Shown here piece after piece: positions 10,936 through 26,199 of a DNA stretch of 42,524 nt. This DNA comes from Bacteroidaceae bacterium (GTDB lineage Bacteria; Bacteroidota; Bacteroidia; Bacteroidales; Bacteroidaceae). Location of the stretch: contig JAFYAT010000015.1 in assembly GCA_017540585.1 (NCBI GenBank), positions 1-42,524 on the forward strand. The letters run 5' to 3'. The stretch's first letter is position 1. Each line of letters begins with the position of its first letter. The notes under the pieces were generated by a model. It saw nothing but the letters and a program-made list of their open reading frames with translations. It did no database searches and was not told the origin of the DNA. Made by a program: the position numbers and the translations under genes.

Positions 10936-13182
10936 ATGAATCATGAATTGAAATCAGCATTTTTCTCTTTCCTTGCCGCCATGTCACTCACGGCTGCGGC
11001 TGAAAAGGTGGAGATACACACCCCAGCCAACAGCCTCGTCGTTGACCTCTGGAAAGACGGCGAGCCTAAGTTCGTCTATTACGGTTCAAGGCTCTCTGCC
11101 CAGGATCTCAAGTCACTTCCTGATCCTACAAGGGAGAACTGGTCGCACCTCGACCTCTATCCTGCTTATGGTGCCAACCATACACAGAGTGAGGTGGCAC
11201 TTGCCATGACTCATGCCGACGGCAATATGTCCACAAGCCTCCTCGTGCAGGATTTCGACATCAAGGAGGTGAGCGACAAGGCTCCTAACGGCAACGACCG
11301 CAAGGGCACACTCCTTACCATCACACTCAAGGACCCCGTCTATCCGACCACCGTTCATCTCTACTACCTTGCCTACAAGGACGTGGATATGATAGAATGT
11401 TGGAGCGACATCAACAATGCCGAGAAGAAGGATGTGCTCCTCACTCAGTTCTACTCAACATGTATGCCTATACGTCGTGGCAATGTGTGGGCAAGCCATT
11501 TCCATGGTTCGTGGGCAGCCGAAGGACAACTCACCGAGGAAAAGCTGAACAACGGTATGCTTGTAGTCAAGAACAAGGACGGAGTGCGCAATGCCACAAG
11601 CGACCGCTCCGAGGTCATGTTCTCGCTTGACGGCAAGGGACAGCAGAACTGCGGTGATGTCATCGGTACAGCCGTACTCTATTCGGGCAACTACCGTGTG
11701 GCAATAGACACCGACGACTCAGAGTATCACTACTACTTTGCTGGTATCAATCCCGACAACTCGTCATACCGTCTGCGCAAGGGCGAGACATTCACAACGC
11801 CACACGTGGCTTACACATTCTCACGTGAGGGACTCTCAGGAGCATCTCGCAATTTCCACCGTTGGGGACGTAACTATCAGTTGCGACATGGCGACAAGCC
11901 ACGCGACATACTCCTCAACTCATGGGAAGGCGTATATTTTGACATCAACCAGAAAGGTATGGACCAGATGATGGCAGACATAGCATCAATGGGTGGCGAA
12001 CTCTTCGTGATGGATGACGGATGGTTTGGCGACAAGTATCCACGCAAGAACGACACATCCTCTCTTGGCGACTGGACGGTTGACCGTACTAAACTGCCCG
12101 ACGGCATCGAAGGACTACTCCGTGATGCCAAGAAGAACAAGGTCAAGTTCGGTATATGGATTGAGCCTGAGATGGCTAACACCAAGAGCGAACTGTACGA
12201 AAAGCATCCCGACTGGATTATCAAGGCACCACAGCGTGAGCCAATACTCGGACGTGGTGGCTCACAGGTCGTTCTCGACCTCTCCAATCCAAAGGTGCAG
12301 GACTTCGTGTTCAGCATCGTGGACGACCTCCTCACCAAGTATCCAGACATAGCATACCTCAAGTGGGATGCCAATGCACCAGTCATGAACCACGGTTCGC
12401 AGTACCTCACCATGGCAAACCAGTCACACCTGTATATCGAGTACCACCGAGGTTTACAGAAAGTGTGCGAACGCATTCGTGCCAAGTATGCCGATGTAGT
12501 CATTCAGGCATGTGCCAGCGGAGGCGGAAGAGCGACATACGGACTCCTGCCATACTTCGACGAGTTCTGGGTAAGTGACGACACCGATGCCCTCCAGCGT
12601 ATCTATATGCAATGGGGAACAAGCTATTTCTTCCCAGCAATAGCCATGGCAAGCCATATATCTGCCACACCTAACCACCAGACATTCCGCACCATACCAC
12701 TCAAGTTCCGTTGCGACGTAGCCATGAGCGGACGTCTCGGAATGGAGATACAGCCAAAGAACATGACCAACGAGGAGAAAGCACTCTGTCGCAAGGCTAT
12801 CGCCGACTACAAGAGTGTACGTCACATCGTTCAGTTCGGCGACATCTACCGACTCCATTCACCATACGAGGGCGACAACCTTGCATCCCTCATGTACGTG
12901 ACGGAGAACAAGCAAGAAGCTGTCTTCTACTGGTACAAACTGGAGACCTTCTGCAACCAGCACCTTCCACGCATCAAGATGGCAGGACTCGACCCAGACC
13001 GTCTCTATACCGTACATGAACTCAACCGTATCGACAATCGTCCACTCGACTGTGAGGGCAAGACCTTCACAGGTGCCTACCTCATGCAGAACGGCATAGA
13101 CCTTCCATTCAAGCACAATGTGGATTACCACAAACAGAATGACTGGGCAAGCCGTGTGATATGGCTGAAAGCCGTGGATTAA
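10936..13182 (+). CDS. GH36 alpha-galactosidase, exported
   Basis: This 748-residue protein begins with a signal peptide (MNHELKSAFFSFLAAMSLTAAA), which places the start at 10936. It has the GH36 layout: N-terminal beta-sandwich (about 25-310), a TIM barrel, and a C-terminal beta domain. The nucleophile Asp478 is in YLKWDANAP and the acid/base Asp548 in WVSDDTDAL; GIWIEPEM and QACASGGGR are further GH36 signatures. It probably removes alpha-1,6-galactose side chains from galactomannan in the periplasm, opening the backbone to the GH26 mannanase. The last 131 bases before the final four codons are repeated at 25770-25900, on the far side of the A/T-rich island. The 3' end of this gene is therefore the island's left border, and its last residues (AVD) differ from the copy (AKE). 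Confidence 0.92.
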   Translation: MNHELKSAFFSFLAAMSLTAAAEKVEIHTPANSLVVDLWKDGEPKFVYYGSRLSAQDLKSLPDPTRENWSHLDLYPAYGANHTQSEVALAMTHADGNMSTSLLVQDFDIKEVSDKAPNGNDRKGTLLTITLKDPVYPTTVHLYYLAYKDVDMIECWSDINNAEKKDVLLTQFYSTCMPIRRGNVWASHFHGSWAAEGQLTEEKLNNGMLVVKNKDGVRNATSDRSEVMFSLDGKGQQNCGDVIGTAVLYSGNYRVAIDTDDSEYHYYFAGINPDNSSYRLRKGETFTTPHVAYTFSREGLSGASRNFHRWGRNYQLRHGDKPRDILLNSWEGVYFDINQKGMDQMMADIASMGGELFVMDDGWFGDKYPRKNDTSSLGDWTVDRTKLPDGIEGLLRDAKKNKVKFGIWIEPEMANTKSELYEKHPDWIIKAPQREPILGRGGSQVVLDLSNPKVQDFVFSIVDDLLTKYPDIAYLKWDANAPVMNHGSQYLTMANQSHLYIEYHRGLQKVCERIRAKYADVVIQACASGGGRATYGLLPYFDEFWVSDDTDALQRIYMQWGTSYFFPAIAMASHISATPNHQTFRTIPLKFRCDVAMSGRLGMEIQPKNMTNEEKALCRKAIADYKSVRHIVQFGDIYRLHSPYEGDNLASLMYVTENKQEAVFYWYKLETFCNQHLPRIKMAGLDPDRLYTVHELNRIDNRPLDCEGKTFTGAYLMQNGIDLPFKHNVDYHKQNDWASRVIWLKAVD
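13042..13172 (+). repeat. 131-bp direct repeat, left copy (3' end of GH36 gene)
   Basis: These 131 bases recur at 25770-25900 in the same orientation at an exact offset of 12728. Only two substitutions are visible (13071 A versus T, 13140 T versus C). The match begins abruptly: 13041 is T where 25769 is C, and the upstream sequences are unrelated. Beyond 13172 the copies diverge but keep the reading frame to a stop. It flanks the eight-gene operon and is the best mark of an insertion or recombination event. Confidence 0.93.
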
Positions 13183-13227
13183 ACCACATCGTTCTTCAGT
13201 GGTAAACAAAAACAATCCTATATGAAT

Positions 13228-13267: not shown

Positions 13268-13542
13268 GTCCCATCAGCACACTATCGTAACTTGAATACA
13301 CATTTCTAAGCATTCGTCCAGAAAAATGTAATGTTTATGCAATTATTCGTCCAAAAGAATGTAAACACAGTAGAAAATGTACTGTTTATCACATTGTTAC
13401 TCGTAGATTGTTGATAACATGCCCAATTTGCGTATTCCCTACGTATATTTTCGTTACATTTTTTGATACATCTTAAAATAAGTTATGTATATTAATACAC
13501 GCTAAATGGGGATGTGTCAAAATAGGCACATCTTCTTGTCTT
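13268..13542. repeat. Intergenic junction with a 33-bp-period direct repeat and an operon-end hairpin
   Basis: The converging ends of the mannan operon and the A/T-rich operon meet here and no gene is seen. The 20-base unit beginning ATTCGTCCA occurs at 13312-13331 and 13345-13364, 18 of 20 bases identical, with a period of 33. Closer to the protease gene, GATGTGTC and GGCACATC (13511-13532) form an 8-bp stem with one G-T pair. This is the likely transcript end for the minus-strand operon. Confidence 0.5.
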
Positions 13543-14286
13543 TCATCTAATATATGGCTTAACAGCATCAATACTCCAAGCATAATTTAGATTTGCTTGG
13601 GAACCATCGGCAAACGAACCAGAAGTAATACCAACAACTTCACCATACTCATTAATTAATGCGCCGCCACTACTTCCATGATCTATAAGTACACTTATTT
13701 GCATCAAATTGTCTGCACGCCACTGAGATATCTCTCCAGATGAAAATGTATTTTCCAATCCACGTGGACTTCCAATTGCATACACCTTTTCTCCAACTCT
13801 TGGTTTATCTTTAGCAATAGGTATAAAGTTTGTATTATCACAATCAACTCGGAATAATATAAAATCTTCCTCCTCACTTTTTGCTAATACCTCAATAACC
13901 TTATAAAAAGAGTCACCATCTACGAGTTTTATTTGTTCAAGACCAATACCAGTACCCTTAAATACATGATAATTACTCACAGCAAGGCCTTCATTATTAA
14001 TGAAAAAACCAGAACCTTGATACGTATTTGTTCCATCAGTAGTGAAGACCATAAAAACAGCACTTCCATAACGATCAAATATTTGTGTACCATCCAATTT
14101 TACATCTGATCGTTTGTTGTTTACGCTTATATTGGCAGAAACTCTTGAAGAATTTCTGCCAGAGTTCTTTGCCATTGTTGTACCTGGACGTTCTTTGTCT
14201 TTACTATGTCCTGACTTATGGGCACATGAAATAACAAGCAACGAACATAAACATATAACAATCCCTATTTTTCTTCTATTCTGCAT
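13543..14286 (-). CDS. Trypsin-like serine protease, predicted lipoprotein
   Basis: This 247-residue protein is the last gene of the eight-gene operon. An N-terminal signal ends in the lipobox VISC (Cys21), so it should be tethered to a membrane on the periplasmic side. After a polar linker (22-65) comes a chymotrypsin-fold domain with His107 in SNYHVFKG, Asp141 in EEDFILF and Ser206 in DHGSSGGAL, a complete catalytic triad of the DegP/HtrA-like type. No PDZ domain follows; the chain ends soon after the protease core. The ATG at 14286 is chosen over a TTG at 14292, and it overlaps the MotB-like gene by 11 bases, indicating translational coupling. It may be the output enzyme of the machine or a processing/maturation protease. 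The target is unknown. Confidence 0.87.
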   Translation of the reverse strand: MQNRRKIGIVICLCSLLVISCAHKSGHSKDKERPGTTMAKNSGRNSSRVSANISVNNKRSDVKLDGTQIFDRYGSAVFMVFTTDGTNTYQGSGFFINNEGLAVSNYHVFKGTGIGLEQIKLVDGDSFYKVIEVLAKSEEEDFILFRVDCDNTNFIPIAKDKPRVGEKVYAIGSPRGLENTFSSGEISQWRADNLMQISVLIDHGSSGGALINEYGEVVGITSGSFADGSQANLNYAWSIDAVKPYIR

Positions 14287-14950
14287 CTTCAATTATATTC
14301 TTAGGAATAATATGTATCACAAATCTTTGATTTAATTTCTCATTTTTGCCTCTTTCACGCATTAGCATTGAATCCAACTGCATAAAACGTTCTGTTCCTT
14401 CACCATTTGTATATCCGAAATTGTATCTACCATCTCCACTTCCGGCTATCTGAATCTCGCAGTTTTCTCCAAAATCAATTTTACAGATGTCCTTCCAAAA
14501 CTTCATCAAAGTAAGAGCACGCTGAAAACTCCAATCATAATTTGCATCAGTTTGTCTAACGGAATTACGAGAAGCCTGTCCCTCGATAATCAACAAATAC
14601 TGATTATTTTTATTCCTATTCAAAAAATTCATAATTTCCTTTCCTGCATGTGTTAGACTATCAGTATTTGCCTGCATATCTTCAAGACTGTATTTTGTTG
14701 CATTAAAAAAACAACTAACATGGAGGACATATTTCTTGTATATGTTTTTATATTCAAAATATCCACTCTTCCCAAGTTCCTTTGTAGATGCTTCTACCTT
14801 TTTTATTTCTTCAAGCTGTGCCTCAGTCGCTTCCATACGTTTATGCAACAAAACAATAACAAGCACAAAAAGAGTTAGCATAATGAAGAAAAGACTTGTC
14901 ATCAAATCAGAATAACTTGTCCAGAAAAAAGATTCCTTTTTCTCCGCCAT
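14276..14950 (-). CDS. MotB/OmpA-like stator protein (ZorB-like)
   Basis: This 224-residue protein has a short cytosolic N-terminus and one membrane helix (about 12-35) carrying SYSDLMTSLFFIMLTLFVL. Asp15 is at the position of the proton-binding aspartate of MotB/ZorB. A periplasmic linker (36-65) leads to an OmpA/MotB peptidoglycan-binding-like domain: LLIIEGQASR, then YDWSFQRALTLMKFW, then NQRFVIHI near the end, matching the helix and strand order of that fold. It follows the MotA-like gene by 17 bases, and the pair should form an ion channel/stator complex. It lacks features of flagellar MotB context, and no flagellar genes are seen. ZorB of the Zorya phage-defence system is the closest comparison I can offer. 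Confidence 0.87.
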   Translation of the reverse strand: MAEKKESFFWTSYSDLMTSLFFIMLTLFVLVIVLLHKRMEATEAQLEEIKKVEASTKELGKSGYFEYKNIYKKYVLHVSCFFNATKYSLEDMQANTDSLTHAGKEIMNFLNRNKNNQYLLIIEGQASRNSVRQTDANYDWSFQRALTLMKFWKDICKIDFGENCEIQIAGSGDGRYNFGYTNGEGTERFMQLDSMLMRERGKNEKLNQRFVIHIIPKNIIEDAE

Positions 14951-14967
14951 AGTATTTCCTTATTACG

Positions 14968-16575
14968 TTATTTACGGATGTTTTTTGTACTATCTTTTAA
15001 GACAACACTTGTACTATCATTTGTAATCACAGAACTTTTTGTAGTATCATTAGCATCATTTACATCCTTTGTCGCATAATTCGTTGGCATGTTGTTTGAC
15101 GAGAAACAAATATTGTAAACAGTATTCGAAATACATGCCATGGCAATCGTAATTACAGAAACAACTATTGTCCATTTCATCCATTCTGGCATAACTTGCA
15201 CTTCCACCGTCGAAGAGTGTTCCCTAAAATTATTGTTGCGAGCCATTTCTCTTGCCGTACGTGTCATAGTGTTTTCCACACGAGAAGCCACATCATTATT
15301 AGAACTTTTTATACCTTCAATTAATTTTTCCAATTTTGCAGGAATACCGGATATTTCTGCTAATTGTTTTTCCAGCATAGGGATTTGACTCAACTGTGCT
15401 CCAAACTGCGAACGTAGTTCATTATTTAACATTATAAAGGAATCACGTTCTTCCGCAACAATATTCTTAAACTCTGTAGCCTGTTGAACAAGAGCAGAGT
15501 TCAGATCTCCAATATTTGAACTTGCTGTTTCCTTCAATGTTCGTAATGCATCTCTCAACTCAACATCAACATTTGCAGATGTCTTTGCAATTTCTGCTTT
15601 ATGACGCATAAAATATTGCTGAATCTCTTCCAAAACGTGTAAACGATTTGATTCCCTTTCGAATTGAGATGTAAATGTATGAATAGCATCAGTATAGCCA
15701 TGAATATCGTCCAAATACTGATTAAACAGTTCCAATTTGTCGGTGCATTCTTTTAATTCCTCCAAAACACGAACATTAGCCTTTGCCATTTTCATGACAT
15801 CCATATCATGAACGGCTTTAATAATGTCACCTTGTATGCGATATGACTCATTAACCTCGCATAATGCACTACGAAGGGAAGATGTATTCTCTGAGAAAGT
15901 ATTATTGAACTTGTTAAGATTCTTTACCAAATTGTTGAGAGCATCAGATGTGTCCGATGGTAATTCTGGCAACAACGTTGCTTGAAGCCATGCAAGAAAA
16001 GTGTTTTTACCAGATTCACCTTGTAGCTTAAATCTCTTAAAAAGCAAAGAACCAATTGTCGTAAGCAAAATACCTATAATACTTGCAACCATTGCCCATG
16101 CTACACCTGACAACAAATCATTAACACCTTCAGCTGCCATTCCAAAATTTCCAGAACCTGATGACAGAAGAGCTGTTATACTTCCTGTAGAAAGAAGCGA
16201 ACCTAATCCTACTATCACACCTGCCATTGTACCAGCTAAGCCACAATACAATGGTGTCGGAGTAAGTGTATTTATATCATTCTCGACTGAATCGCAATGA
16301 CGATCTACGGCATCTTTCAACAGAGAGAAATCAATAACAGATCCGGAGTTATTTTTGAGATATTTGTTAATGGAGTCTTTTATTGAGGCAAAAACCTTAT
16401 TGCCACGACCAGAAATACCAGAAACCAAATTGGTTTCTGGATTATATACGATGCCCCATGTTTTATCTTCCTTAAATATTTCCTTGTAATCAATCATTCG
16501 AGCCACATTCTTCACAAAGAAATATATTTGAAACACTACGACAGCAATAACTATTATAATTGGTATTTCTTCCAT
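14968..16575 (-). CDS. MotA/TolQ/ExbB-like channel protein with long helical tail (ZorA-like)
   Basis: This 535-residue membrane protein has helix 1 at 4-22 and the MotA/ExbB channel pair at about 110-137 and 157-179 (PLYCGLAGTMAGVIVGLGSLL; GVAWAMVASIIGILLTTIGSLLF). A long helical, coiled-coil-rich region (about 200-450) follows, as in ZorA, where a cytosolic tail is thought to signal from the motor. Unlike classical ZorA, it has a further membrane helix near the C-terminus (468-490) and a Ser/Thr/Asn/Asp-rich tail of 45 residues. Its start lies one base after the stop of the upstream coiled-coil gene and its partner is the next gene. It should form the pentameric shell of a five-to-two stator by family analogy; the fourth helix is unusual and may anchor the tail back to the membrane. 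Confidence 0.87.
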   Translation of the reverse strand: MEEIPIIIVIAVVVFQIYFFVKNVARMIDYKEIFKEDKTWGIVYNPETNLVSGISGRGNKVFASIKDSINKYLKNNSGSVIDFSLLKDAVDRHCDSVENDINTLTPTPLYCGLAGTMAGVIVGLGSLLSTGSITALLSSGSGNFGMAAEGVNDLLSGVAWAMVASIIGILLTTIGSLLFKRFKLQGESGKNTFLAWLQATLLPELPSDTSDALNNLVKNLNKFNNTFSENTSSLRSALCEVNESYRIQGDIIKAVHDMDVMKMAKANVRVLEELKECTDKLELFNQYLDDIHGYTDAIHTFTSQFERESNRLHVLEEIQQYFMRHKAEIAKTSANVDVELRDALRTLKETASSNIGDLNSALVQQATEFKNIVAEERDSFIMLNNELRSQFGAQLSQIPMLEKQLAEISGIPAKLEKLIEGIKSSNNDVASRVENTMTRTAREMARNNNFREHSSTVEVQVMPEWMKWTIVVSVITIAMACISNTVYNICFSSNNMPTNYATKDVNDANDTTKSSVITNDSTSVVLKDSTKNIRK

Positions 16576-16576
16576 C

Positions 16577-17497
16577 TTACTTGTTCAATTTTAGCATCAA
16601 TGGTTTTGTAACAATCCATGTTTCACTATCACACTTTTCACATTCACCATATTCCTCGACTGTAAAGTTAGATGCTTCGTTTATTGAAACTCCGCTATAT
16701 TTCACTTTTGTTTGCCAATCATTTTTTGATTGTATTTTGTCCAACGATATAATTTCAAATTTACCTTTTGTTGGACTTAAAAATGTAATTTTGAAAGCAC
16801 ATCCTTCTTGATTAGAGTCGTAAATGTGTGTAAAATATTTGTCAGAATCAACTTTTGCATAACCAACTTTATTCTCAACAATGTTAGTTGACACAGTATT
16901 TCTGTGATTATTAACTCCAGAATCTTTTCTACATAATTCTCTCAATTTTCTTTCTACTTCATCCATCTTGCCTTCCAAATTTCTTAAACGCATTTCTCCT
17001 TGTTGAGGAGCGTAATTGTTTTGATTAGATGAATTCTTATTTTGTAAAGAATACAAATGATTTACTTTTCCAGAAAGTTCATGTATTCTTCCTTCGTTTA
17101 TAGAATCATTCAAACGCTTTTCGGCAATATCACGAATGCGACCTTCCCTACACATAATAAGTGTCAAAGCGATGGCAATAAATGACAAAAGCATTGTAAA
17201 TATGGTCATATATTGCCATGCCATTTTGGGCTTCTCCAGTCCATCTATTTTATCCTTTAATTCCGCATTATCTTTGTTTGCAGAATTCAGTTCCGCTGTT
17301 AACGTATCAACTTTATTCACCAGTTCCATCATCAGGCTATCCTGTGCAACAATCTTCTGTTTTACAGAATCTGGAAGCTCGATAATTGTTGTGACCTCTT
17401 TCTCCTCTTTTGTGGAATTATCCTCATCAAGAATGTCACATGATGATATGGCAAAGATAATTGCCATATAAAATATATAATGTATAATACCCTTCAT
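16577..17497 (-). CDS. Coiled-coil membrane protein with predicted lipobox
   Basis: I do not recognise a family for this 306-residue protein. It opens with a hydrophobic segment ending in ISSC (Cys20), a plausible lipobox followed by an acidic stretch (DILDEDN). Residues 43-90 form a predicted coiled coil and 93-115 a membrane helix followed by CREGRIR, so the C-terminal part is probably cytosolic by the positive-inside rule. A second charged helical stretch (about 118-200) and a small globular C-terminal domain (about 225-306) with a CEKC pair follow. It sits between the actin-like and MotA-like genes, one base from each. A bridging role between cytosolic filaments and the stator is inference. 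The lipobox may be fortuitous. Confidence 0.8.
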   Translation of the reverse strand: MKGIIHYIFYMAIIFAISSCDILDEDNSTKEEKEVTTIIELPDSVKQKIVAQDSLMMELVNKVDTLTAELNSANKDNAELKDKIDGLEKPKMAWQYMTIFTMLLSFIAIALTLIMCREGRIRDIAEKRLNDSINEGRIHELSGKVNHLYSLQNKNSSNQNNYAPQQGEMRLRNLEGKMDEVERKLRELCRKDSGVNNHRNTVSTNIVENKVGYAKVDSDKYFTHIYDSNQEGCAFKITFLSPTKGKFEIISLDKIQSKNDWQTKVKYSGVSINEASNFTVEEYGECEKCDSETWIVTKPLMLKLNK

Positions 17498-17498
17498 A

Positions 17499-20400
17499 TT
17501 AATTTCTATTTTCTAAATAATATTCTTGTATCTTACATGAGAGTGATTGCAAAACTCCCTTGATAGGATAGAATGCAATTGCATCTTCTATCTGATTATC
17601 TTTATTTCCTGCCTCAATGCAAGAAAGCTCAAGACCTTTATCCAAATACGTATCTAAATCTTTCAGACATTCTTCTTGGGCAATCTTAATTGTGACATTA
17701 TCCACACCAAAGTTATTGTCAAGATTAAATGATGCAGGAATTTCAGCAAGAACAAAACGGAAGAAATCCTTTACAGAGTTCACGACTTCTTTCTTATAAG
17801 CATCCGTAACAGATGCGTATGTATCACCAGTACCAACCAATGTTCCAGTAGAGTCTTTAAGAACTATTGTGTCTGGTTCATAATCATTAACATCTGTAGT
17901 GATTAATCCTCCCTTACATGTCGCTTCTTTAGGATTTGCACCTTGTTCTAGGCCAAGAATATCAAGCTCAGATTCATATTTCTTACTTAATACCTTCTCA
18001 AATATGACTTTAGTGAACTTTGCCAACAGCTTCGAATCTGTCGAAATGATACTAATAATCTTACTACCATTTCCACTAAAAGCGATATGTCGAGGTTCTT
18101 TTATTCCCTTTATCTTCACAATCTGCGCTATATGATAGATAATTGCAGAATAGAAGATAATGAATACAAGCTTGAACTTAGTATCATTTTGCAAAATTCT
18201 GTTGAAGTCAATATTATTTTGAGCAAGTCCTGTTGTCGCAGAATTATCCTTCAAAGAGAACAAGAACGAAGCCATATTTGCAGGCTGTCCCAAGTTACCA
18301 TTGAAGATACTAACCAACTCATTCAATTCTGGCTTTGACATTAAAAGCTCCAAGAAATCATTCTTAAACCAATCAACGATACCATTATTTGGGTTAATGT
18401 CAGAGAAAGAATCCTCAAAGAGGGAATTTGCTGCAAACTTGAACGAAGTAATATATTCAACTCTTCCGTTTGAAGAAAAGGCTATATCCGTTGTGCCACC
18501 ACCAATATCTACATTTACAAGATTTGTTGCTGTTGCATACCTACGGAAATAGAACTGAATTGGCGCAACGGATTCAGACACATTCAGTGTAACACCATCA
18601 CTCCAAAATAGTTCTTTATAGGAATCGTTCCATGCACTTCGTAATTGTGTAAGACGACGAGGTGACATACTGTTTGGATAAAACCATATAATCTTTGTGC
18701 GAGAAAGATTACCATTATTTGCAATCACCTTGTTACGAATAATCAACATAATATTACGAATATACGCTTGCATAGCTGACTGAGCATTCGTATCATTACT
18801 CCACTTGATATTTACCATAGGTTTAGCATTGTACGCAATACCCAGCTTCTTATTATATGTTAAATCCAAGTTTACGAGTCCAAATACTCTTTGCTCGTTT
18901 TTCCAATCTGTAGATTTTGCATAAGATAAAGCAGTCCTTGTAGGGAAGGAGAAATCAGAATCAATGCCAACGTTCTCTGGAATGAAATCACGAACCATCA
19001 AGTCTTTCTCATCTACGAGATCAAGAGGAATACGTTTCCCTTGAACATCACGAAATGATTGAACAAAGAAAGTACAATATATAGATTCAGAATCCTTGTA
19101 ATCGAATGGAGCAGAATTGTTATTATCCGCTTTCTTATATTCGATATGAGTGTTAGAAGTTCCCAAATCAACAGCAAATTCAAATTCGTCTAAATTCTGA
19201 TGAACAACGAAATTAGGAATTAGGATGTTATATACACCATTCTGATTGGAAACTCTTATAAAATCAAAGTTGTTATGTTCAACAGTATATGTTACAGCCT
19301 TGTAATCATACAATCCTTTTTCTTTATTTCTGCAATCATTAGGAATATCACGTATGATTTCGCCATTACGATAAAAGTCAAAATTAAAGTTACTTGAAAA
19401 AGTGCTTACACATGATATTGTATAAAGTGCATCTTCTTCACGCTGGAATTTTACACCTGGCATTATCATTCCCGTGAAATCAAATGTTACAATACCACCA
19501 GAATTCTGCACATCTGTAACTTCTGCTTTTCTTTGTGCATAATATATACGCTGATACTCAATGTAATTCGTAGTAGCATTTCCTGTGATAGGTATTCGTA
19601 TAATCACATTGACAGAGCCTCCTGCAAGAGATTCCATCTCAAACGCAGGTTTACCATCTGGCATAGAAGAATTCAAAGTATCCACAGAAAAATACTTAAA
19701 ATACATTGGCTTTATAGGTAATAAGAAAGATGTCATTTTTTCTACATCTTTAATATTACCATCAAAGAAATATTTCTTATTTAAGGAATGTGGAACCTTT
19801 ACTATTGAGTCCTCCAGAAAATCACTAATAGTAAGATATGCAAATACCGACCCTTCAAATGGAAGTGTGCGATTGTTTATATCCTCTATTTCTGCTTTAT
19901 ATGGTGCTTTATTTGTTTTACCCCACTTTCCATTGACATACTGTAAGTCAGAATATGTATTACCAGACTCAACAGGAAGTACAAGCGGTTTTGTTCCATC
20001 AATATCAAAATCTGAACGAATTGAAAACTCGTTCTTAATATCCACATTTTTTTTCTTTTTGAACAATACCGTTCCCAACACTTCAACCTGATTGTTTTGT
20101 TGATGAGACTGTACATCAATTAACGAGAAATCTTTAGCTGAAGCAGAAGTTATGGAATTCAATTCATTCTTGATACCTTGATCTGTAATGGCTTTATATG
20201 ACAAATTAAGATAATTCTCCACTTCTGGAAATAAAGTGGAAAAATTAGAAATACTCTTACGAATAGTCCACCAAGCTTTTATATAATCAAAATCCCTTTT
20301 ATATAAAGGCATGTATTCACCATCAAAAGGTTTATCATTATTAGCAAAATATATATCCTTGATGTATTCAAGATTATTTGCTCCACTAAAGAAAAGTGTG

Positions 20401-20927
20401 GCTGGTGAAGTTGAACCAATAATATTCATTTCATCAGGACCTTGAATATAGTTAAGCATATATATATTCTTCATCATCGTAAAGTTGTAGGTCTTTGCAT
20501 CAGAAGAAAGATATTTCTCCAAAGCATCACCTACATAATAATGACTGTTATTGCCATCAGACTTCAACGAACGTATCATCTCAGTTGGATCACAAGTGAT
20601 AATTTCAATCTTATCCTTAAATTTATCAATGTTGAAGAAAATCTCACCAACATCCAAAGAATCAGATACCATTTTATGGAAAATAGTTTTTCCACTCAAC
20701 TCGTTTATATCTCGTGTTGCTCTACGACATACTTCCTTAAAAGCAGTCTTTACAAGATCGATTCGTGCAAAAGGAGATGGGATAGATGTTATTTCACTTT
20801 TTGCACTCGCTCCATCAGGGTCGTCGATTGTGTCACGTGAATTTGAATTATAAGGAAACGTCGGAGAATCATTCCAACCCTGATAGGTGTTTGTTCCTCC
20901 ACTATATAATCTGAAGACTTTTGACAT
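17499..20927 (-). CDS. Large protein with C-terminal actin/Hsp70-like ATPase domain
   Basis: This 1142-residue protein is the largest of the operon. Residues 1 to about 580 are unrecognised; they look globular, mixed alpha/beta, without membrane helices. The C-terminal half carries the three actin-superfamily nucleotide motifs in order: phosphate-1 AVDLGTSNTHIEY (Asp587), phosphate-2 NVDIGGGTTDIAF (Asp807), and adenosine HIAFSGNGSKII (Gly952-Gly954). The size and DLGTSNT signature recall SrfB-type proteins, but I cannot confirm that without a profile search. It follows the tubulin-like gene by five bases and precedes the coiled-coil gene by one. It probably binds ATP in the cytosol and may polymerise or act as an ATP-driven switch. 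Codon use is A/T-rich like its neighbours. Confidence 0.85.
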   Translation of the reverse strand: MSKVFRLYSGGTNTYQGWNDSPTFPYNSNSRDTIDDPDGASAKSEITSIPSPFARIDLVKTAFKEVCRRATRDINELSGKTIFHKMVSDSLDVGEIFFNIDKFKDKIEIITCDPTEMIRSLKSDGNNSHYYVGDALEKYLSSDAKTYNFTMMKNIYMLNYIQGPDEMNIIGSTSPATLFFSGANNLEYIKDIYFANNDKPFDGEYMPLYKRDFDYIKAWWTIRKSISNFSTLFPEVENYLNLSYKAITDQGIKNELNSITSASAKDFSLIDVQSHQQNNQVEVLGTVLFKKKKNVDIKNEFSIRSDFDIDGTKPLVLPVESGNTYSDLQYVNGKWGKTNKAPYKAEIEDINNRTLPFEGSVFAYLTISDFLEDSIVKVPHSLNKKYFFDGNIKDVEKMTSFLLPIKPMYFKYFSVDTLNSSMPDGKPAFEMESLAGGSVNVIIRIPITGNATTNYIEYQRIYYAQRKAEVTDVQNSGGIVTFDFTGMIMPGVKFQREEDALYTISCVSTFSSNFNFDFYRNGEIIRDIPNDCRNKEKGLYDYKAVTYTVEHNNFDFIRVSNQNGVYNILIPNFVVHQNLDEFEFAVDLGTSNTHIEYKKADNNNSAPFDYKDSESIYCTFFVQSFRDVQGKRIPLDLVDEKDLMVRDFIPENVGIDSDFSFPTRTALSYAKSTDWKNEQRVFGLVNLDLTYNKKLGIAYNAKPMVNIKWSNDTNAQSAMQAYIRNIMLIIRNKVIANNGNLSRTKIIWFYPNSMSPRRLTQLRSAWNDSYKELFWSDGVTLNVSESVAPIQFYFRRYATATNLVNVDIGGGTTDIAFSSNGRVEYITSFKFAANSLFEDSFSDINPNNGIVDWFKNDFLELLMSKPELNELVSIFNGNLGQPANMASFLFSLKDNSATTGLAQNNIDFNRILQNDTKFKLVFIIFYSAIIYHIAQIVKIKGIKEPRHIAFSGNGSKIISIISTDSKLLAKFTKVIFEKVLSKKYESELDILGLEQGANPKEATCKGGLITTDVNDYEPDTIVLKDSTGTLVGTGDTYASVTDAYKKEVVNSVKDFFRFVLAEIPASFNLDNNFGVDNVTIKIAQEECLKDLDTYLDKGLELSCIEAGNKDNQIEDAIAFYPIKGVLQSLSCKIQEYYLENRN

Positions 20928-20932
20928 AATAA

Positions 20933-22327
20933 TTACGAATTAATTTTTTCGTTAAACAATCTTGTCATAGCAATGTAGAACATTTCCAAAAATTTATCTT
21001 TATCCTCCTTGCTCTGACATTTCTTTACAGCGGTATTTAAGCGATCAGTCACTAAGTCATAATCAGATTTAAGACTAATAATCTTTTTAGATTTACGACC
21101 TGTAACAATATCAAAAGGCTTGTCATTCGCATTAAGATTAAACAAATCCAAGGAACGTTTGTTATTCTTCATCTCTGCCAACCAATCAATGAACAGAATG
21201 ACAAAGTTCCGCAGATCCGACATAAAAGAAGAGCTATACAATTCGCGGAAATTATCGTTATTCGCATTGAAACTTTTTGATGAATAATAATCAAATTTGT
21301 GATCCAAGCAGTTAGCCATCATCAGAAACTCTGTAAGAGGGGCATAAAGCAAACGATTCTGATTGTCATAAAAAGAATCAAACGTCACAGAATCGACCAA
21401 ATCCTTCAATCCAAGTTCCTTGTTTGTCGTATTTTGATGTTGTTTGTTACTAAAGTCCACAATTGCCGTAGCGGCAAGGAACTCTATTAAATGCGCATCA
21501 TTTTGTTGAGCAATACCACCTTCGTGATTCTCATACGTATTTGCTACATCGTCAGCCAAAAAATAAAGAGCATCTATAGAATTATTTTTTATTATATTAT
21601 TTTCATAATATGCCAATGCTGATTTTGTTTTAGATATAAAAGTTGATGAATCAATTTCACTTTGCTCATCCTTATCCAATTTGAAATATGGAAGAATGGA
21701 AATTGCACCAATCTCAGCATGATTAATAATGTCATGGTTAGGGAAATTAGTTCCTGTACGAAGGGTTTTTAGCAGAAGAGGGAAACCACTGGCTCCTGTT
21801 CCACCAAAAATAGAACTAATGATAAATATCTTATCCCCAGAATCAAAATTATTGGCAAAAGTCTGAAAATCTTCAGAATCCACAATTTGATTTAGGACAA
21901 CACTTCCAACATTTGGATTTCCCTTAAAACCAACATTCATAGAAGACGCAAGATTCTTCTCTGAGAAGAACATTCTCATCATTGCTTGCGACGTTTTATC
22001 CATTGATGGTAAATCAATAAACTGTTGAAATGTCTTGTCATCTGTGTCTTTTACACAGAGTGTATAGTTTACAAGTATTTGTGAAAGTTCTTTTCTGAAG
22101 AAAATAGACTCATTACTATCCGAAAAGGATAATGAAGAACGGATTGACCTATAATTATTCATCAAGGTAACAGTTCTTGTAAGGTCAGCATTGGAAGCAT
22201 CAGGGTCAATGACAATTGGAACAATTTCATCAACTCCAATATTAACTCCAGCAGCCATCAACATGGTAAAAGAACGAAGAACGCGAGCGCCAGTTCCACC
22301 TATTCCAAACACATACAATTTCGCCAT
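20933..22327 (-). CDS. Tubulin/FtsZ-like GTPase superfamily protein
   Basis: This 464-residue protein has an N-terminal nucleotide-binding start (KLYVFGIGGTGARVL, residues 3-17) followed by IVIDPDASN (Asp41). In the middle, FGGTGASGFP (174-183) matches the tubulin signature GGTGSG that binds the GTP phosphates. This arrangement fits the divergent Tubulin_2/FtsZ-like proteins, not cell-division FtsZ: it lacks the FtsZ C-terminal tail and no division genes are near. Residues 200-460 are helical with an unusual asparagine/lysine-rich composition. It should be cytosolic. In the FtsZ-like families described by Makarova and Koonin such proteins lie beside vWA and OmpA-family genes, as here. Polymer formation is likely by family, not shown. 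Confidence 0.85.
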   Translation of the reverse strand: MAKLYVFGIGGTGARVLRSFTMLMAAGVNIGVDEIVPIVIDPDASNADLTRTVTLMNNYRSIRSSLSFSDSNESIFFRKELSQILVNYTLCVKDTDDKTFQQFIDLPSMDKTSQAMMRMFFSEKNLASSMNVGFKGNPNVGSVVLNQIVDSEDFQTFANNFDSGDKIFIISSIFGGTGASGFPLLLKTLRTGTNFPNHDIINHAEIGAISILPYFKLDKDEQSEIDSSTFISKTKSALAYYENNIIKNNSIDALYFLADDVANTYENHEGGIAQQNDAHLIEFLAATAIVDFSNKQHQNTTNKELGLKDLVDSVTFDSFYDNQNRLLYAPLTEFLMMANCLDHKFDYYSSKSFNANNDNFRELYSSSFMSDLRNFVILFIDWLAEMKNNKRSLDLFNLNANDKPFDIVTGRKSKKIISLKSDYDLVTDRLNTAVKKCQSKEDKDKFLEMFYIAMTRLFNEKINS

Positions 22328-22341
22328 AATAGAACTATATA

Positions 22342-22800
22342 TTAAAATGGAGTGTTAGAACAATTTGTACTCCACCATTTGATTAGACAAGAAAATATTA
22401 CAAATGCAATTAAAGCATCAATCATGTTTGTAACGCCAAATGCGAAAATATCATCTGTGTCAATTGGCAGGTCAACCAATTTACCTGTCACGACATCTTT
22501 TTTCACCATAAAGCCAGCATAATAGTCTTTTAGAACCCATTGCCAGCCAACAATTAAATTAACAACAAGATTAATTACAAGAAATATAGCCCATCCCCAC
22601 CATGTATTCAAACGAGGATGATTCAAAACATAATAATAGCATACACATACCAACAACGATATTGACAACATGGACAAACCAACGCCAATATACATATTGC
22701 TCATTTGTTCAGGAGAAGACTCTCCCCAAAGATAATTTGCAAGCTCAATCCCAAAAAAGTCCTCAAGCCAACAATAAATACTTCCAAATAATTCGCCCAT
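22342..22800 (-). CDS. Small integral membrane protein of the eight-gene operon
   Basis: This 152-residue protein has about three membrane helices (roughly 35-58, 67-90 and 118-140) and an aromatic-rich N-terminus (SIYCWLEDFFGIELANYLW). I recognise no family. The loop between helices 2 and 3 contains a short charged hairpin (KKDVVTGKLVDLPIDTDD). Spacing of 7 bases to the vWA gene and 14 to the tubulin-like gene makes co-translation likely. It could anchor the tubulin-like protein to the inner membrane; that is inference from position only. Confidence 0.8.
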   Translation of the reverse strand: MGELFGSIYCWLEDFFGIELANYLWGESSPEQMSNMYIGVGLSMLSISLLVCVCYYYVLNHPRLNTWWGWAIFLVINLVVNLIVGWQWVLKDYYAGFMVKKDVVTGKLVDLPIDTDDIFAFGVTNMIDALIAFVIFSCLIKWWSTNCSNTPF

Positions 22801-22807
22801 ATTTTTC

Positions 22808-23989
22808 TTATTTATTTTTCAAATTAAAAGTAACAACTCCATAAACTTCATAATTCTTATATGATTCTGAAACTCCTTTTATCAAAGACATTAAGCCTGT
22901 TGTCTTATCCAAGTTGTTCGTCACATTTTGTCCTGTAGTATCGTCGGAATTTGAAACCCAGACAGGCATTCTCGGATAAGAGAATGTTATAGTTTCAGTC
23001 CTCAACGTAGCAGGATTATCAATTTCCAATTCAACAACATGACTATATAGACTATTAACATCTGAAATCTCATTTACTGACACAATGGTTACTTGATTTG
23101 GATTTGCGGTCTTTATATTAGAAATATTCGTGAGAACATCTTTTCCCTGTAAGGTGCCTCGAAGATCTACAAGTAAATTAACAGAAATCTTACCCGTGTG
23201 ATTAATTACATAAGACTTTTTCTCAATGTCAAATGGGATTGATTGTGACGTGGAATAAGCACAATATTCCTTAATACCACCAATTATTTCTTCTACAGGC
23301 ACATTTTTGTTTAACTTTGCCAAATATCGTTGGTCACCAATTATCCATATATAGTATGGACGTTTTACATCTTTAAGATATTCCTTATTTAGTCCACAAT
23401 ACCAAAAACCCTCAAATTTTGAATCCAACTTTAATATTTCTACTCCCAAACGAGGATTTGCCGAAATCGCTTCATTAAATGTGTTTTTTATTGCAACTTG
23501 ACAATTGCCCAGATAATCAATTGCATTTTGAGGAATATCCAATATGCAATCTGAAACAAATATTGATACAGTATTACAATTTTGTTCTTTAACAATAGTA
23601 TCCAAAATCTGCATCAAATCTGTATTTTTCCTATTTCCACCAGCTTTAGCAAATGAAACTGGAGTCAAATCTTTTATAAAAGATTTCAAATCGCCATTAT
23701 ATGGAATAACCTGAGAATTAATATAATTGAGAGAACATGATGTAGAGAATCTGCTCACGTCACTTATATAGTCGAATACAGCATCCTTCAAGTTTGAACC
23801 TGCACACATATAAGCATCCATACTTCCAGAGTTTTCAACATAAACTTTTAATTCGATAGAATCCTTAGATATGTCTGAAACTTGCGATGATTGCCAATCT
23901 ATTTGAATTTTATTTCCTCCTGTACACTGAAATATTATAGCAAAAGCAATAACTATGCACAACGCAATTGGAATGATTACTTTTTTCAT
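22808..23989 (-). CDS. Membrane-anchored extracytoplasmic vWA-domain protein
   Basis: This 393-residue protein is the first gene of the operon. A hydrophobic N-terminus (4-21) ends at Cys22, but the sequence IFQC is a poor lipobox, so an uncleaved anchor is as likely as lipidation. A vWA-type domain follows: strand ELKVYVENSGSM gives a metal-site motif ExSxS (Glu52, Ser54, Ser56) in which Glu replaces the usual Asp; Thr123 and Asp147 (FVSDC) provide the other two metal-site positions. Residues 230-393 are beta-rich, ending in a possible immunoglobulin-like or MIDAS-adjacent domain. The domain should face the periplasm, where it may sense or bind an envelope ligand. The vWA call is by motif and is less certain than the neighbours. 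Confidence 0.72.
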   Translation of the reverse strand: MKKVIIPIALCIVIAFAIIFQCTGGNKIQIDWQSSQVSDISKDSIELKVYVENSGSMDAYMCAGSNLKDAVFDYISDVSRFSTSCSLNYINSQVIPYNGDLKSFIKDLTPVSFAKAGGNRKNTDLMQILDTIVKEQNCNTVSIFVSDCILDIPQNAIDYLGNCQVAIKNTFNEAISANPRLGVEILKLDSKFEGFWYCGLNKEYLKDVKRPYYIWIIGDQRYLAKLNKNVPVEEIIGGIKEYCAYSTSQSIPFDIEKKSYVINHTGKISVNLLVDLRGTLQGKDVLTNISNIKTANPNQVTIVSVNEISDVNSLYSHVVELEIDNPATLRTETITFSYPRMPVWVSNSDDTTGQNVTNNLDKTTGLMSLIKGVSESYKNYEVYGVVTFNLKNK

Positions 23990-24113
23990 ATTTAAGATGT
24001 TTCTCTCTATATATACCAGATAAATTAAAATTTCATTATTTTCTGAATATATCTTATAAGTTTAATGTATTAGCATTGATAAAGAAAAGTCTATCGTTAT
24101 TTAACAATTAAGA

Positions 24114-24121
24114 CAAAGATA
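24114..24121 (-). promoter_or_regulatory. Candidate -7 promoter box for the eight-gene operon
   Basis: Read on the minus strand, TATCTTTG matches the Bacteroidetes -7 consensus TAnnTTTG. It lies about 125 bases before the vWA gene start, so the mRNA would have a leader of about 115 bases. No convincing -33 TTTG is seen at the usual distance. Confidence 0.5.
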
Positions 24122-24289
24122 ACAGACATACACTATGTCATACCATTACAGACATATATATTTTCATTATCCACGAATAATTATATAATATTTCTAAGAA
24201 AATATTATATTAACAAAATGAAAATAACAATATGTCATGGAAATGTTTTCCATCTATCTTTTGATATGCTATAGAAAAAAGATTTTACC

Positions 24290-24690
24290 ATTGTTGCATA
24301 AAAGATGTAGCAACCGCCCCAAGATGCTGAGCCAAACATTCAGTTCACATACACACAAAAAAACGTGGAGCCAGTCCTGTCACTCGTTCCACGGATTGAG
24401 GCTCTCGCATTGCCCTACTTGTCGAAACGAGCAACGCTGAAAGCCCCACGCCGATGTATATACAAATACGCCATGTAATATGGTTCTTTGGAACCATAAC
24501 GCAATGACGACATATGTGTACATCCCGAAGGGCGTTCCCGTTGCTTTGTTTTTGACAAGTAATTGTGAATTTGCGAGATTCCAGTCCGTCAAAACCAAAG
24601 CGCTAAGGTACGCCTTTTATGTATATGTCTCTTCCCTCCGCTATAGCCCTCGTGGACTTTCAGCGTGTTTAAAGACCTTGCAAAAATACT
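24290..24690. other. Structured, less A/T-rich segment: candidate ncRNA or dispersed repeat
   Basis: This 400-base stretch has visibly higher G+C than the A/T-rich flanks. It contains nested pairings. CGCTGAAAGCCCCACG (24435-24450) can pair with CGTGGACTTTCAGCG (24651-24665). Inside lie TATGGTTC/GAACCATA with a TTTG loop (24479-24498) and a 14-base stem with one mismatch (24543-24556 with 24588-24601). A further hairpin (CGTGGA/TCCACG) spans 24364-24393. No protein-like ORF is convincing on either strand and no reverse transcriptase is nearby. I do not recognise it as tmRNA, 6S or RNase P RNA. Confidence 0.45.
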
Positions 24691-25184
24691 AATAATACCA
24701 CAATTAACAAAAAAATAATAGTTTTTTTTCTCATTCCCATAAATAATTGGCATCATCACCTCATGGCGATATAAACATATCCTTTCATTACTTCCATTCA
24801 TATTGGAAAGGAACAAAATCTAACATAAAGGAATAGGTCAATGTGTTACGTCATTATTAGAAGTGTAAGGAAGGCACGGAGAAGTAGAAAACGCTATATC
24901 TGGAAACTCCTATTCTGACACATATGATACTTCTATGTTACATAATCGTAATAAAGTGCCGACAAGCACTAAAGAATGTCGTTCCGTTTTGTCCTATCCT
25001 CTTGTGTTTTTCATTCTCCCTTTCATTTTATATGCATAAGGAAGAAAATTTATTTCGTGCACGCAGAAAAAATTATTTGTATGCGTACAAAAAAAATCGG
25101 CCTCACTATATTTATGTCTTAGCTAAGATGTCGAGTTTCGTTTTGTCTTATCCCATGACATAGGGTACATCTGTTTACAAAGAG
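24691..25184. other. A/T-rich non-coding stretch
   Basis: I see no gene here. The open frames on both strands are short, lack ribosome-binding sites and have no recognisable protein pattern. The sequence is A/T-rich like the operon to its left. Confidence 0.5.
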
Positions 25185-25259
25185 ACCCATATCATTCTAC
25201 TACAGACCCCATATCTTTTTGGTTTTATACCCATATCTCCCGACATTTACACCCATATC
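25185..25259. repeat. Four 9-bp repeats at an exact 22-bp period
   Basis: The motif ACCCATATC (GATATGGGT on the other strand) starts at 25185, 25207, 25229 and 25251. The second copy has C in place of the first A. The spacing is exactly 22 bases each time, about two helical turns, so all copies face the same side of the helix. The spacers are unrelated to each other. This suits an array of protein-binding sites, such as iterons or LytTR-type direct repeats, rather than a slipped tandem repeat. A single further CCCATATCT is at 26185. Confidence 0.6.
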
Positions 25260-25476
25260 TTTTTTCAAAGAGAAGACATGATTTGCTATGTTATGCATAA
25301 TCAATAATATGCAAGGGCTGTACGATGTTAAGAATGCAAAAATTTAACAAATATAAAAATAACTCTCACACGTTAGGAATTGGCGCTTTCTCAGACGGAA
25401 GTTTTTCATAACACTAACATTATTAACAAAATAACTTCGCGACACATTGCCTATATTATACCTTATTAATATATAT
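25260..25476. other. Non-coding A/T-rich stretch
   Basis: No gene or repeat is supported here. The minus-strand frame at 25344-25550 has no recognisable protein pattern and includes the hairpin at 25477-25530. Confidence 0.45.
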
Positions 25477-25535
25477 AAAGAGAAAATGCCATCAACATCC
25501 GCAATGGTTGTGATGGCATACTCTTTGTATTTTTT
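25477..25535. terminator. Hairpin with T-run
   Basis: AAAGAG and ATGCCATCA at 25477-25494 pair with TGATGGCAT and CTTT at 25511-25525, followed by GTATTTTTT. On the plus strand this is a typical intrinsic terminator. No plus-strand gene ends directly before it, so it may be the leftover terminator of a lost gene. Confidence 0.55.
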
Positions 25536-25769
25536 AATGATGTTAACCACGAGGCTGCACGTTAATTACTTTCCTACGCCCAGAGAGGAATGTTGGTAAT
25601 TCAGTCCTACAACAAGCGGCTTCAGTCAACTGTTTTTCAACTGTTTTTATCGGTTTTTCCATGTTTTTTCTTCGTCCGCACCTATGGTGTGATAATACCG
25701 CAAATAACGTAACAGATTTCTCCAATTTTCGCCCTCGCTCAACTGGGCGAACAAAGTATCTACCCCAGC

Positions 25770-25910
25770 CCACTCGACTGTGAGGGCAAGACCTTCACTG
25801 GTGCCTACCTCATGCAGAACGGCATAGACCTTCCATTCAAGCACAATGTGGATTACCACAAACAGAACGACTGGGCAAGCCGTGTGATATGGCTGAAAGC
25901 TAAGGAATAG
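25770..25910 (+). pseudogene. 3' fragment of a GH36 alpha-galactosidase gene (right copy of direct repeat)
   Basis: Bases 25770-25900 repeat 13042-13172 with two substitutions. The frame stays open for 46 codons (PLDCEGKTFTGAYLMQ onward) and ends with Lys-Glu and TAG, versus Val-Asp and TAA in the full gene. No start codon or upstream part of the gene is present: the sequence before 25770 is unrelated. It is therefore either the original 3' end of the gene, displaced when the island entered, or the end of a lost paralogue. A plus-strand hairpin (26003-26052) lies about 90 bases after its stop. Confidence 0.9.
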
Positions 25911-26002
25911 GCAACCTCATCCCGCCCTTTGTCATCCATCGAGCAGAACATTTCACCTCTTTATGGAGCATAGGGTAATGAAAATATGGGGATTTAGCAA
26001 TG

Positions 26003-26052
26003 ATTTAACAGCAATTAAACAGCGATTGAACACTGTTTAATTGCTGTTAAAT
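26003..26052. terminator. Perfect 20-bp-stem hairpin
   Basis: Arms 26003-26022 and 26033-26052 are perfectly complementary over 20 bases (ATTTAACAGCAATTAAACAG arm) around a ten-base loop. It is about 90 bases downstream of the GH36 fragment stop, which suggests the original terminator of that gene, although it is A/T-rich with no clear T-run. A related AGCTGTTAAAAGG follows at 26064. Confidence 0.65.
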
Positions 26053-26199
26053 TGTTGATAAAAAGCTGTTAAAAGGTGTTATATTTCTGCAAAAATCATG
26101 TCGCATCCATTCGTAAGCAAGCGGGACTGCCCCCTTCTGACGATACAAGAGCAATGCGGACACTCAGAGTGCGCAGAGTCTCCGCCCATATCTACCATG

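Follow-up and report, generated by a model that had tools for sequence, protein, structure and literature searches.

What do a tubulin-like protein, an actin-like protein, a MotA/MotB-type pair and a lipoprotein protease do together in one bacterial operon? The question arises from eight minus-strand open reading frames (ORFs) at positions 13543-23989 of contig JAFYAT010000015.1 (assembly GCA_017540585.1), from a Bacteroidaceae bacterium. The stretch analyzed, hereafter the window, covers positions 1-42,524 of that contig. Judged by sequence comparison, the eight genes form one recurring unit with a conserved core, and the gene after motB usually encodes an exchangeable lipoprotein hydrolase, mostly with a common N-terminal tag. 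On this basis we tentatively propose an envelope-spanning machine that deploys periplasmic enzymes, and we weigh the proposal against its alternatives.

Gene order and conservation

An ORF check of the window bears out the initial annotation of eight close-packed, A/T-rich minus-strand genes with gaps of 1-17 bases and a small overlap. From the vWA-like through the MotB-like gene, the intergenic gaps are 7, 14, 5, 1, 1 and 17 bases. Between the protease ORF and motB there is an overlap of 17 bases, or of 11 if the protease starts at the ATG two codons further in. In 1500-base steps over 13501-25500 the G+C content is 32-37%, compared with 45-50% in the left flank and 38-50% in the right flank. 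In transcriptional order the genes are:

22808..23989, minus strand: vWA-like predicted lipoprotein, 393 amino acids (aa); signal peptide, lipobox, ENSGSM motif
22342..22800, minus strand: three-helix membrane protein, 152 aa; predicted helices 36-54, 72-90 and 118-136
20933..22327, minus strand: tubulin/FtsZ-like GTPase-type protein, 464 aa; GGTGASG loop, PF00091, AlphaFold2 model
17499..20927, minus strand: actin/Hsp70-like ATPase-type protein, 1142 aa; invariant motif residues, weak profile matches
16577..17497, minus strand: coiled-coil membrane protein, 306 aa; lipobox-like signal, second helix 93-111, C-terminal domain
14968..16575, minus strand: MotA/TolQ/ExbB-like protein, 535 aa; long helical tail, extra helix 465-483
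14276..14950, minus strand: MotB/ZorB-like protein, 224 aa; invariant membrane Asp15, OmpA-like periplasmic domain
13543..14292, minus strand: trypsin-like lipoprotein at the variable effector position, 249 aa; PF13365, lipobox and tag, active-site alignment

Relatives were collected by scanning 84,980 species genomes with a sequence pattern, a method that detects close relatives only. A tubulin-like relative turned up in 28 loci, 27 titled as Bacteroidota and one, L002 (66% identity), as Bacillota, possibly in error. Genus and phylum searches added 16 stretches, giving 44 loci, all chosen by tubulin-like match, among which the same species may occur twice.

The vWA-like, three-helix, tubulin-like, actin-like, MotA-like and MotB-like genes stand in this order on one strand in 30 of 45 loci (the window plus the 44). 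This neighbourhood survey agrees with the earlier suggestion that the genes belong together. The 30 complete loci include two with broken frames (L013, L003) and two in which an extra gene separates MotA from MotB (L014, L019). The extra gene, found in two Kordia loci (L014 17860-19710, and L019), encodes a protein of 579-616 aa and unknown family. A coiled-coil gene is recognized by profile between the actin-like and MotA-like genes in 27 of the 30; L051 and L055 have an unassigned ORF at that place and L052 has none. Five of the 15 incomplete loci are cut by contig ends (L012, L023, L025, L026, L057), and seven lack a local MotA and MotB (L028, L053, L056, L062, L063, L065, L066). Of the others, L064 has MotA and no recognized MotB, L060 has no actin gene and a stop in tubulin, and L054 is a tubulin-profile match within a different locus. 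That weak match, from the same genus, lies among several proteins with TIR-like N-termini (L054 3928-14273), possibly another defence-like locus.

The presence of the cluster is patchy, as judged from profile matches. Within the genus, the tubulin profile matched 5 of 45 genomes including the window's own, and the form with MotA and MotB occurs only in the window, G002 and G010; G008 holds the divergent L053 and G023 the unrelated-looking L054. In the phylum sample, 13 of 395 genomes matched, among them the window's own and the divergent G228, G328 and G353. The set, with MotA and MotB, is also present on two IMG/VR contigs (L146, L147), which could be prophages, copies carried by phages, or bacterial contigs sorted wrongly.

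Variable enzyme position

The protease had been regarded as a fixed component of the machine. Pfam matches, sequence clusters and motifs instead identify it as one of several interchangeable, mostly tagged lipoprotein enzymes. A same-strand gene follows MotB within 100 bases in 23 of the 31 clusters with MotB, and 21 of these 23 genes have a lipobox by the rule used here. By Pfam, the downstream genes encode aspartyl protease (PF13975), NucA-type DNA/RNA non-specific endonuclease (PF01223), exo/endonuclease/phosphatase (EEP; PF03372), staphylococcal-nuclease type (SNase; PF00565), transglutaminase-like (PF01841) and trypsin-like domains; at further loci the enzyme class was assigned by sequence cluster or motif.

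The window enzyme is firmly assigned as trypsin-like from its matches to PF13365 in Pfam (1.9e-22) and to the trypsin part of the PADLOC RT-Protease models (5.2e-18). His, Asp and Ser are kept in 7/7 aligned trypsin-type sequences. L022 combines trypsin (1.9e-22) and NucA (1.2e-52) domains in one chain. A pattern check saw the active-site motifs of aspartyl protease, SNase, EEP or NucA in 18 downstream ORFs; it missed the trypsin-type ORFs and the NucA-type genes of L003, L004, L005 and L052, which were identified by Pfam. Loci with two enzymes place a protease or transglutaminase-like gene first and a nuclease second (L003, L004, L005, L007, L011, L013, L015, L016, L020, L021). The window has a protease alone, and in L006, L008, L018 and L051 a nuclease comes first. 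Downstream of the enzyme genes, L003, L004, L005, L006, L008, L020 and L022 share a cluster of small membrane proteins, one tested member of which (in L006) matches DUF6804 (1e-28); these proteins could serve in immunity or anchoring.

Exchange was also followed on a quick tree of 42 tubulin-like sequences, in which 10 of 39 inner branches are poorly supported. The class of the first enzyme (23 labelled rows) changes 7 times on this tree, against a possible minimum of 4 and a shuffled mean of 12.0, so enzyme classes cluster by descent yet still change. The window and L001, both with trypsin, group with L005, which has an aspartyl protease, in a clade of three rows (support 100, about 80% tubulin identity). 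Its members differ in protease class and keep the tag, so one of the enzyme swaps is recent.

N-terminal lipoprotein tag

We defined the tag as Cys, at most 5 residues, one of K/R/S/N/Q/H, then Ser, then Gly or Ala, and one of R/K/H/Q/S. It is present in 17 of the 21 lipobox enzymes directly after MotB and in none of the 24 lipobox ORFs found in 18 control stretches. The Fisher value of 5e-9 is descriptive only, because the rule was written after the sequences were seen. The four untagged enzymes are those of L006 and L008 (CIPARPNGNTGRQQ-type), L017, whose lipobox is probably false, and L009, which reads CHDCSCSRSGRRR and fails the rule by spacing. Counted more widely, the tag is carried by 20 of the 37 lipobox ORFs that lie no more than four genes past MotB, by 0 of 42 ORFs of the core and by 2 of the 44 remaining ORFs. 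One of the 20, a 732-aa protein of L058, looks like chance; of the 2, the one in L056 is an aspartyl protease from a cluster without MotB.

The same tag stands before different enzymes. It reads CAHKSGH in the window (trypsin), CAHKSGR in L005 (aspartyl protease), CAGCSKSGR in L016 (trypsin), CSGCSKSGQ in L011 (aspartyl protease), CSKSGKK in L018 (nuclease) and CVGCSNSGR in L020 (transglutaminase); CxxCSxSGR summarizes the form seen at other loci. A degenerate DNA pattern for the window's tag has a single exact match in the 3.6 Mb assembly (86% complete), in the trypsin-like gene:

14210..14226, minus strand: DNA of the lipoprotein tag CAHKSG; degenerate-pattern match

A nuclease partner with the same tag elsewhere in the window genome was considered and rejected: two NucA-type genes exist and the exact tag occurs only in the operon, in a search that misses diverged tags.

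MotA/MotB-like pair

The MotB-like protein appears closer to Zorya ZorB than to flagellar MotB. Its profile first matches PDB entries 8VVN (7.9e-15) and 8QYD (1.6e-6), the latter of which we take to be a Zorya structure; MotB entries follow (6YKP, 4.2e-4; 6YSF, 9.4e-4; 8UCS, 0.0012). Accession 8VVN occurs in the Zorya paper PMC11890865. The protein matches the PADLOC ZorB1 model (1.3e-11) and scores 22.3 bits against the NCBIfam ZorB1 equivalog, which has a cut-off of 400. Because it stays under that cut-off despite the ZorB1 and 8VVN matches, it is best regarded as kin of ZorB and not the same protein. Membrane Asp15 is invariant in the family. Its counterpart in ZorB, D24, is crucial for Zorya defence according to PMC11890865.

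The window's MotA-like protein alone matches no MotA model in Pfam, with coiled-coil noise only, and no ZorA model. At the family level, 11 of 21 members match PF01618 (best 1.7e-6), and no more than 6 of the 21 are matched by any one ZorA model (best 2.7e-9). The channel motif GLxGTxxG is conserved in the family in a GLxGTMxG-type form. Together with the membrane Asp, it supplies the marks of a MotA/TolQ/ExbB-MotB motor. Most PDB matches of the MotA-like profile were discarded as unrelated coiled coils; GldL (7SAU, 0.0073) was not counted as a relative, as the match covers the helical part only. In the neighbouring coiled-coil protein, a lipobox-like signal is followed by a further helix at 93-111.

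Tubulin-like, actin-like and vWA-like proteins

Profile and structure checks stand firmly behind three of the initial motif calls, the tubulin-like, MotB-like and trypsin-like ones; the actin-like call comes out weak, and the vWA-like call, based on its motif and on cyanobacterial homologues, has no match in Pfam or PDB profile searches.

A tubulin fold is firmly predicted for the tubulin-like protein from its AlphaFold2 model (24-sequence alignment; pLDDT 85, pTM 0.89). Among the 87 PDB matches of the model (E <= 0.001), the best 50 are all tubulin, FtsZ or CetZ entries, with probability 0.99-1.00 and TM-scores of 0.23-0.42. Such low TM-scores indicate that the protein is far diverged. In Pfam it scores 30.5 bits against PF00091 (5.5e-7), below the 33-bit cut-off, and 18.6 bits against PF13809 (0.0012), below the 27-bit cut-off; PF00091 is thus the higher-scoring of the two. 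We take PF13809 to be the FtsZl1 family. In the model, strands alternate with helices, the C-terminal part is helical and there is no long coiled-coil extension.

The actin-like protein is weakly assigned, from conserved motifs and weak profile matches. Across 19 sequences D587, G589, T590, D807, G809-G811, G952 and G954 are invariant, and these residues make up the phosphate and adenosine motifs. The best PDB matches of the profile are weak (MreB 7BVY, 0.0025; FtsA 7Q6G, 0.0043). The N-terminal half of about 580 aa is uncharacterized.

The vWA call is the weakest of the assignments. None of 22 family members (0/22) matches a Pfam vWA family, and the profile has no PDB match. What suggests it is the conserved ENSGSM motif and the homologues on two cyanobacterial plasmids, which read DxSGS, the canonical form of the vWA motif (DxSxS). 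Lipobox Cys22 is nearly invariant (22 sequences), so the protein is probably a lipoprotein located beyond the inner membrane. Its one hydrophobic segment spans 4-22; at the threshold used here such a segment is detected in 27 of 40 family ORFs and in none of the remaining 13. The three-helix protein keeps three predicted helices in 32 of 38 family members.

Genomic island

The operon sits in an accessory island, as judged from two breaks in the surrounding sequence:

13364..25755, no strand: A/T-rich variable island; collinearity with the relative that is nearest by the neighbouring gene ends at 13363, and the duplicated 3' end of the neighbouring gene starts at 25756

The gene to the left is presumably alpha-galactosidase-like. 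Among 45 genomes of the genus, G020 is the best match to its 3' part (88%). Collinearity of G020 with the window (87%) stops at 13363, with other genes beyond, and the tubulin-like profile finds no match in that assembly (86% complete). On the other side, the left neighbour's 3' end (13028-13190) recurs at 25756-25918, a duplication of 163 bases at 90% identity. An inverted repeat (25993-26062) lies near the duplicated end. Window positions 25340-25772 are 98% identical to a place in the relative L141, about 12 kb from its alpha-galactosidase-like gene, and are probably a dispersed repeat. L141 lacks the island and instead has two radical-SAM-like genes beyond the alpha-galactosidase-like gene (L141 7544-9815), which we take to be HxsB/HxsC-like, so genes appear to turn over at this site.

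Proposed mechanism

We favour, with somewhat less than even confidence, the reading that the operon encodes one trans-envelope, cytoskeleton-coupled ion motor that deploys exchangeable tethered periplasmic hydrolases, most likely against invaders. It is preferred because gene order is kept in 30 of 45 loci, the MotB-like protein is kin to ZorB with an invariant membrane Asp, and tagged enzymes are swapped, with catalytic residues kept in the trypsin type and active-site motifs present in others as far as the patterns used could find them. The trypsin-NucA fusion of L022 and the 7 changes of enzyme class on the tubulin tree are further support. The patchy distribution and the absence of the island at this site in the nearest relative point the same way.

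The MotA-like and MotB-like proteins would form a five-to-two ion-driven motor, as in Zorya, and would respond to envelope damage, with the OmpA-like domain of the MotB-like protein gripping or sensing peptidoglycan. The helical MotA-like tail would enter the cytoplasm, where the tubulin-like and actin-like proteins, as polymers or as switches, would couple to it. On the outer side, both the vWA-like lipoprotein and the hydrolase with its tag would sit in the periplasm, where the tag would dock the enzyme to the machine. The trigger would be a breached envelope, most likely phage DNA injection. Ion flow or motor rotation would then release or activate the tethered protease and, where present, nuclease, and these may break down protein and DNA where they enter, or else cause the death of the cell; in the window copy, this part would fall to the trypsin-like enzyme. 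The sequences themselves show the gene set and its order, the tubulin fold, the kinship of the MotB-like protein and the enzyme swap with the tag kept. Complex formation, topology, tag docking, trigger and target are inferred by analogy with Zorya, and periplasmic placement, the role of the tag, polymerization and ion flow are likewise predictions.

If the proposal is true, both great cytoskeletal families and a rotary ion motor deploy enzymes in the periplasm, which incoming phage DNA must cross. The shared tag of about 7 residues would be a concrete experimental handle, and the exchanged modules a natural experiment.

Contrary evidence and alternatives

Several observations weigh against the proposed motor for defence. 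An enrichment near known defence genes had been suggested as a check, and none was found. From the flanks of 18 loci (143 ORFs of at least 120 aa), 125 ORFs of up to 1200 aa were drawn at random, and another 125 from controls, one other 14-kb stretch from each of the same 18 genomes (195 ORFs). Removal of one flank row (the tagged aspartyl protease of L024) and one control row left 124 and 124 proteins. At 1e-10, PADLOC gave 25 models in 5 name groups for the flanks and 6 models in 4 name groups for the controls; these counts are of models, as the search does not give the number of distinct proteins. In the flanks, PDC-M72A matched in 2 proteins and the other 24 models in one protein each (17 E1-E2, 3 RtcR, 3 mads, 1 CARF_m8). 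In the controls, PDC-S30, 2 AbiEii, 2 mads and AriA models matched one protein each. Loci L021 and L026 were outside the sample; both presumably adjoin a likely type I restriction gene.

The enzyme position is also not uniform. Eight of the 31 MotB clusters have no close downstream gene (L014, L019, L024, L027, L051, L055, L058, L061), the close downstream genes of L052 and L059 have no lipobox, and enzyme classes partly follow descent, their 7 changes lying below the shuffled mean. Enzymes of these kinds, proteases and nucleases, might just as well act in nutrition, secretion or turnover. Nor is the motor obligatory, since seven of eight searched assemblies have no family MotB. Eight genomes with a cluster lacking MotB (those of L028, L053, L056, L062, L063, L064, L065 and L066) were searched with the MotB profile and one matched, so the idea that MotB is encoded elsewhere holds for L028 (on another contig) and fails for the other seven, two of which are only 80% and 88% complete. 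Finally, in L066 the tubulin-like relative lies beside TerD proteins (two tested; PF02342 1.4e-70 and 4.3e-51).

The motorless relatives suggest a related reading, which we consider possible, if rather doubtful. In a new class of immune or policing machine of the envelope, tubulin-like and actin-like NTPases would drive or gate a ZorAB-type motor with interchangeable tagged periplasmic enzymes, and the tubulin-actin-vWA core would be older and wider than the motor module. That greater age and spread is suggested by the core's occurrence on cyanobacterial plasmids and, diverged, beside TerD genes. On the two plasmids (L149, L150), homologues of the vWA-like, tubulin-like and actin-like proteins keep their order and bear annotations of unknown or hypothetical; a small unmatched protein takes the three-helix place.

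A membrane-remodelling or vesicle machine is unlikely. Tubulin-like and actin-like filaments would bend or pinch the envelope, MotA/MotB would give force and the hydrolases would be cargo or wall-side helpers. The lack of enrichment near known defence genes suits this idea, two cytoskeletal NTPase families would be an odd requirement for a plain sensor, and an FtsZ-like protein with vWA and OmpA-type partners is the proposal made in the passages of PMC2875224 on such systems. However, the swapped proteases and nucleases have no obvious vesicle role and are exchanged as in conflict systems, and presence is patchy.

We also think it improbable that the operon is an export or retention machine, in which the tag would be an address read by an energized complex that moves hydrolases onto the outer face, there to scavenge or to attack other cells. 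The tag is specific to its position (17 of 21 versus 0 of 24, with a single exact match in the window genome), and protease and nuclease pairs would suit scavenging or antagonism. Yet the surface-export signal of Bacteroidota lipoproteins is acidic, and here the residues after the lipidated Cys are basic. In addition, Pfam finds no beta-barrel or outer-membrane pore family among the eight proteins, and the patchy presence again argues against this role.

An envelope-stress or wall-homeostasis system akin to Ter, with NTPases setting a threshold and hydrolases processing envelope proteins, is very unlikely: its support is the TerD neighbourhood of L066, which forms a clade with L053 and L065 (support 99), but that branch is distant (length above 2) and without MotA/MotB, the TerD link is firm in one locus only, as no TerD match came from the small proteins in L053 and L065, and nucleases fit poorly.

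Comparison with known systems

The initial annotation knew of no named system with this exact gene set, and literature searches aimed at such a set, among open-licence papers, likewise found no description of it. It had also linked the locus to the systems of Makarova and Koonin. The idea is related, since the FtsZ-like 1 (FtsZl1) systems of PMC2875224 likewise combine a divergent FtsZ-like protein with vWA partners (here a putative vWA protein) and OmpA-type partners, with GTPases and kinases as further partners and membrane remodelling proposed, as described in the passages on them. A match is not demonstrated, however. Pfam finds no P-loop GTPase or protein kinase among the eight proteins. 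The GTPase or kinase partner, described there as frequent but not universal, is thus without a match here; the tubulin-like protein (464 aa) lacks the long coiled coil described for most FtsZl1 members; and the operon has an actin-like ATPase and a motor pair, unlike FtsZl1 systems as set out in those passages. A Bacteroides caccae sequence stands in the Figure 1 alignment of PMC2875224, whose legend names no family for it. Makarova and Koonin described tubulin-like proteins of this kind in 2010, with no role known for them; our proposal, if it holds, would offer a candidate function.

The DO-GTPase/GAP1-N2 conflict systems include tubulin, HSP70-superfamily and vWA proteins in conflict-type neighbourhoods (PMC7159879). 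In the sections concerned, tubulin and HSP70 form two distinct themes, found chiefly in Firmicutes and Actinobacteria. Among the eight proteins, Pfam recognized no DO-GTPase, GAP1 or FNIII protein, in a search that included no GAP1 or DO-GTPase model; tubulin is the only GTPase family that Pfam finds there. The words MotA, TolQ and Zorya are absent from the text of PMC7159879. Its System 3 couples a trypsin-like peptidase to a NucA-type endonuclease, sometimes in one chain, and the L022 fusion resembles it. As presented in its section, System 3 is mostly alphaproteobacterial and has no cytoskeletal or motor core. Other vWA proteins are coupled to TolQ-type motors, according to the relevant part of PMC12204202.

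Zorya offers the closest comparison for the motor. The likeness comprises a MotA/MotB-type pair, a ZorB-like MotB with membrane Asp and OmpA-like domain, a long helical MotA tail and an exchangeable effector. For Zorya, the passages used from PMC11890865 give a role to ion flow, to the binding of peptidoglycan and to the tail of ZorA, and the DNA is damaged by a nickase effector. PADLOC finds no match to the ZorC, ZorD or ZorE models among the eight proteins, and the operon adds tubulin-like, actin-like, vWA-like, three-helix and coiled-coil proteins. Zorya effectors damage DNA inside the cell (PMC11890865, same passages); the operon's effectors, in contrast, are predicted lipoproteins outside the cytoplasm and include proteases as well as nucleases.

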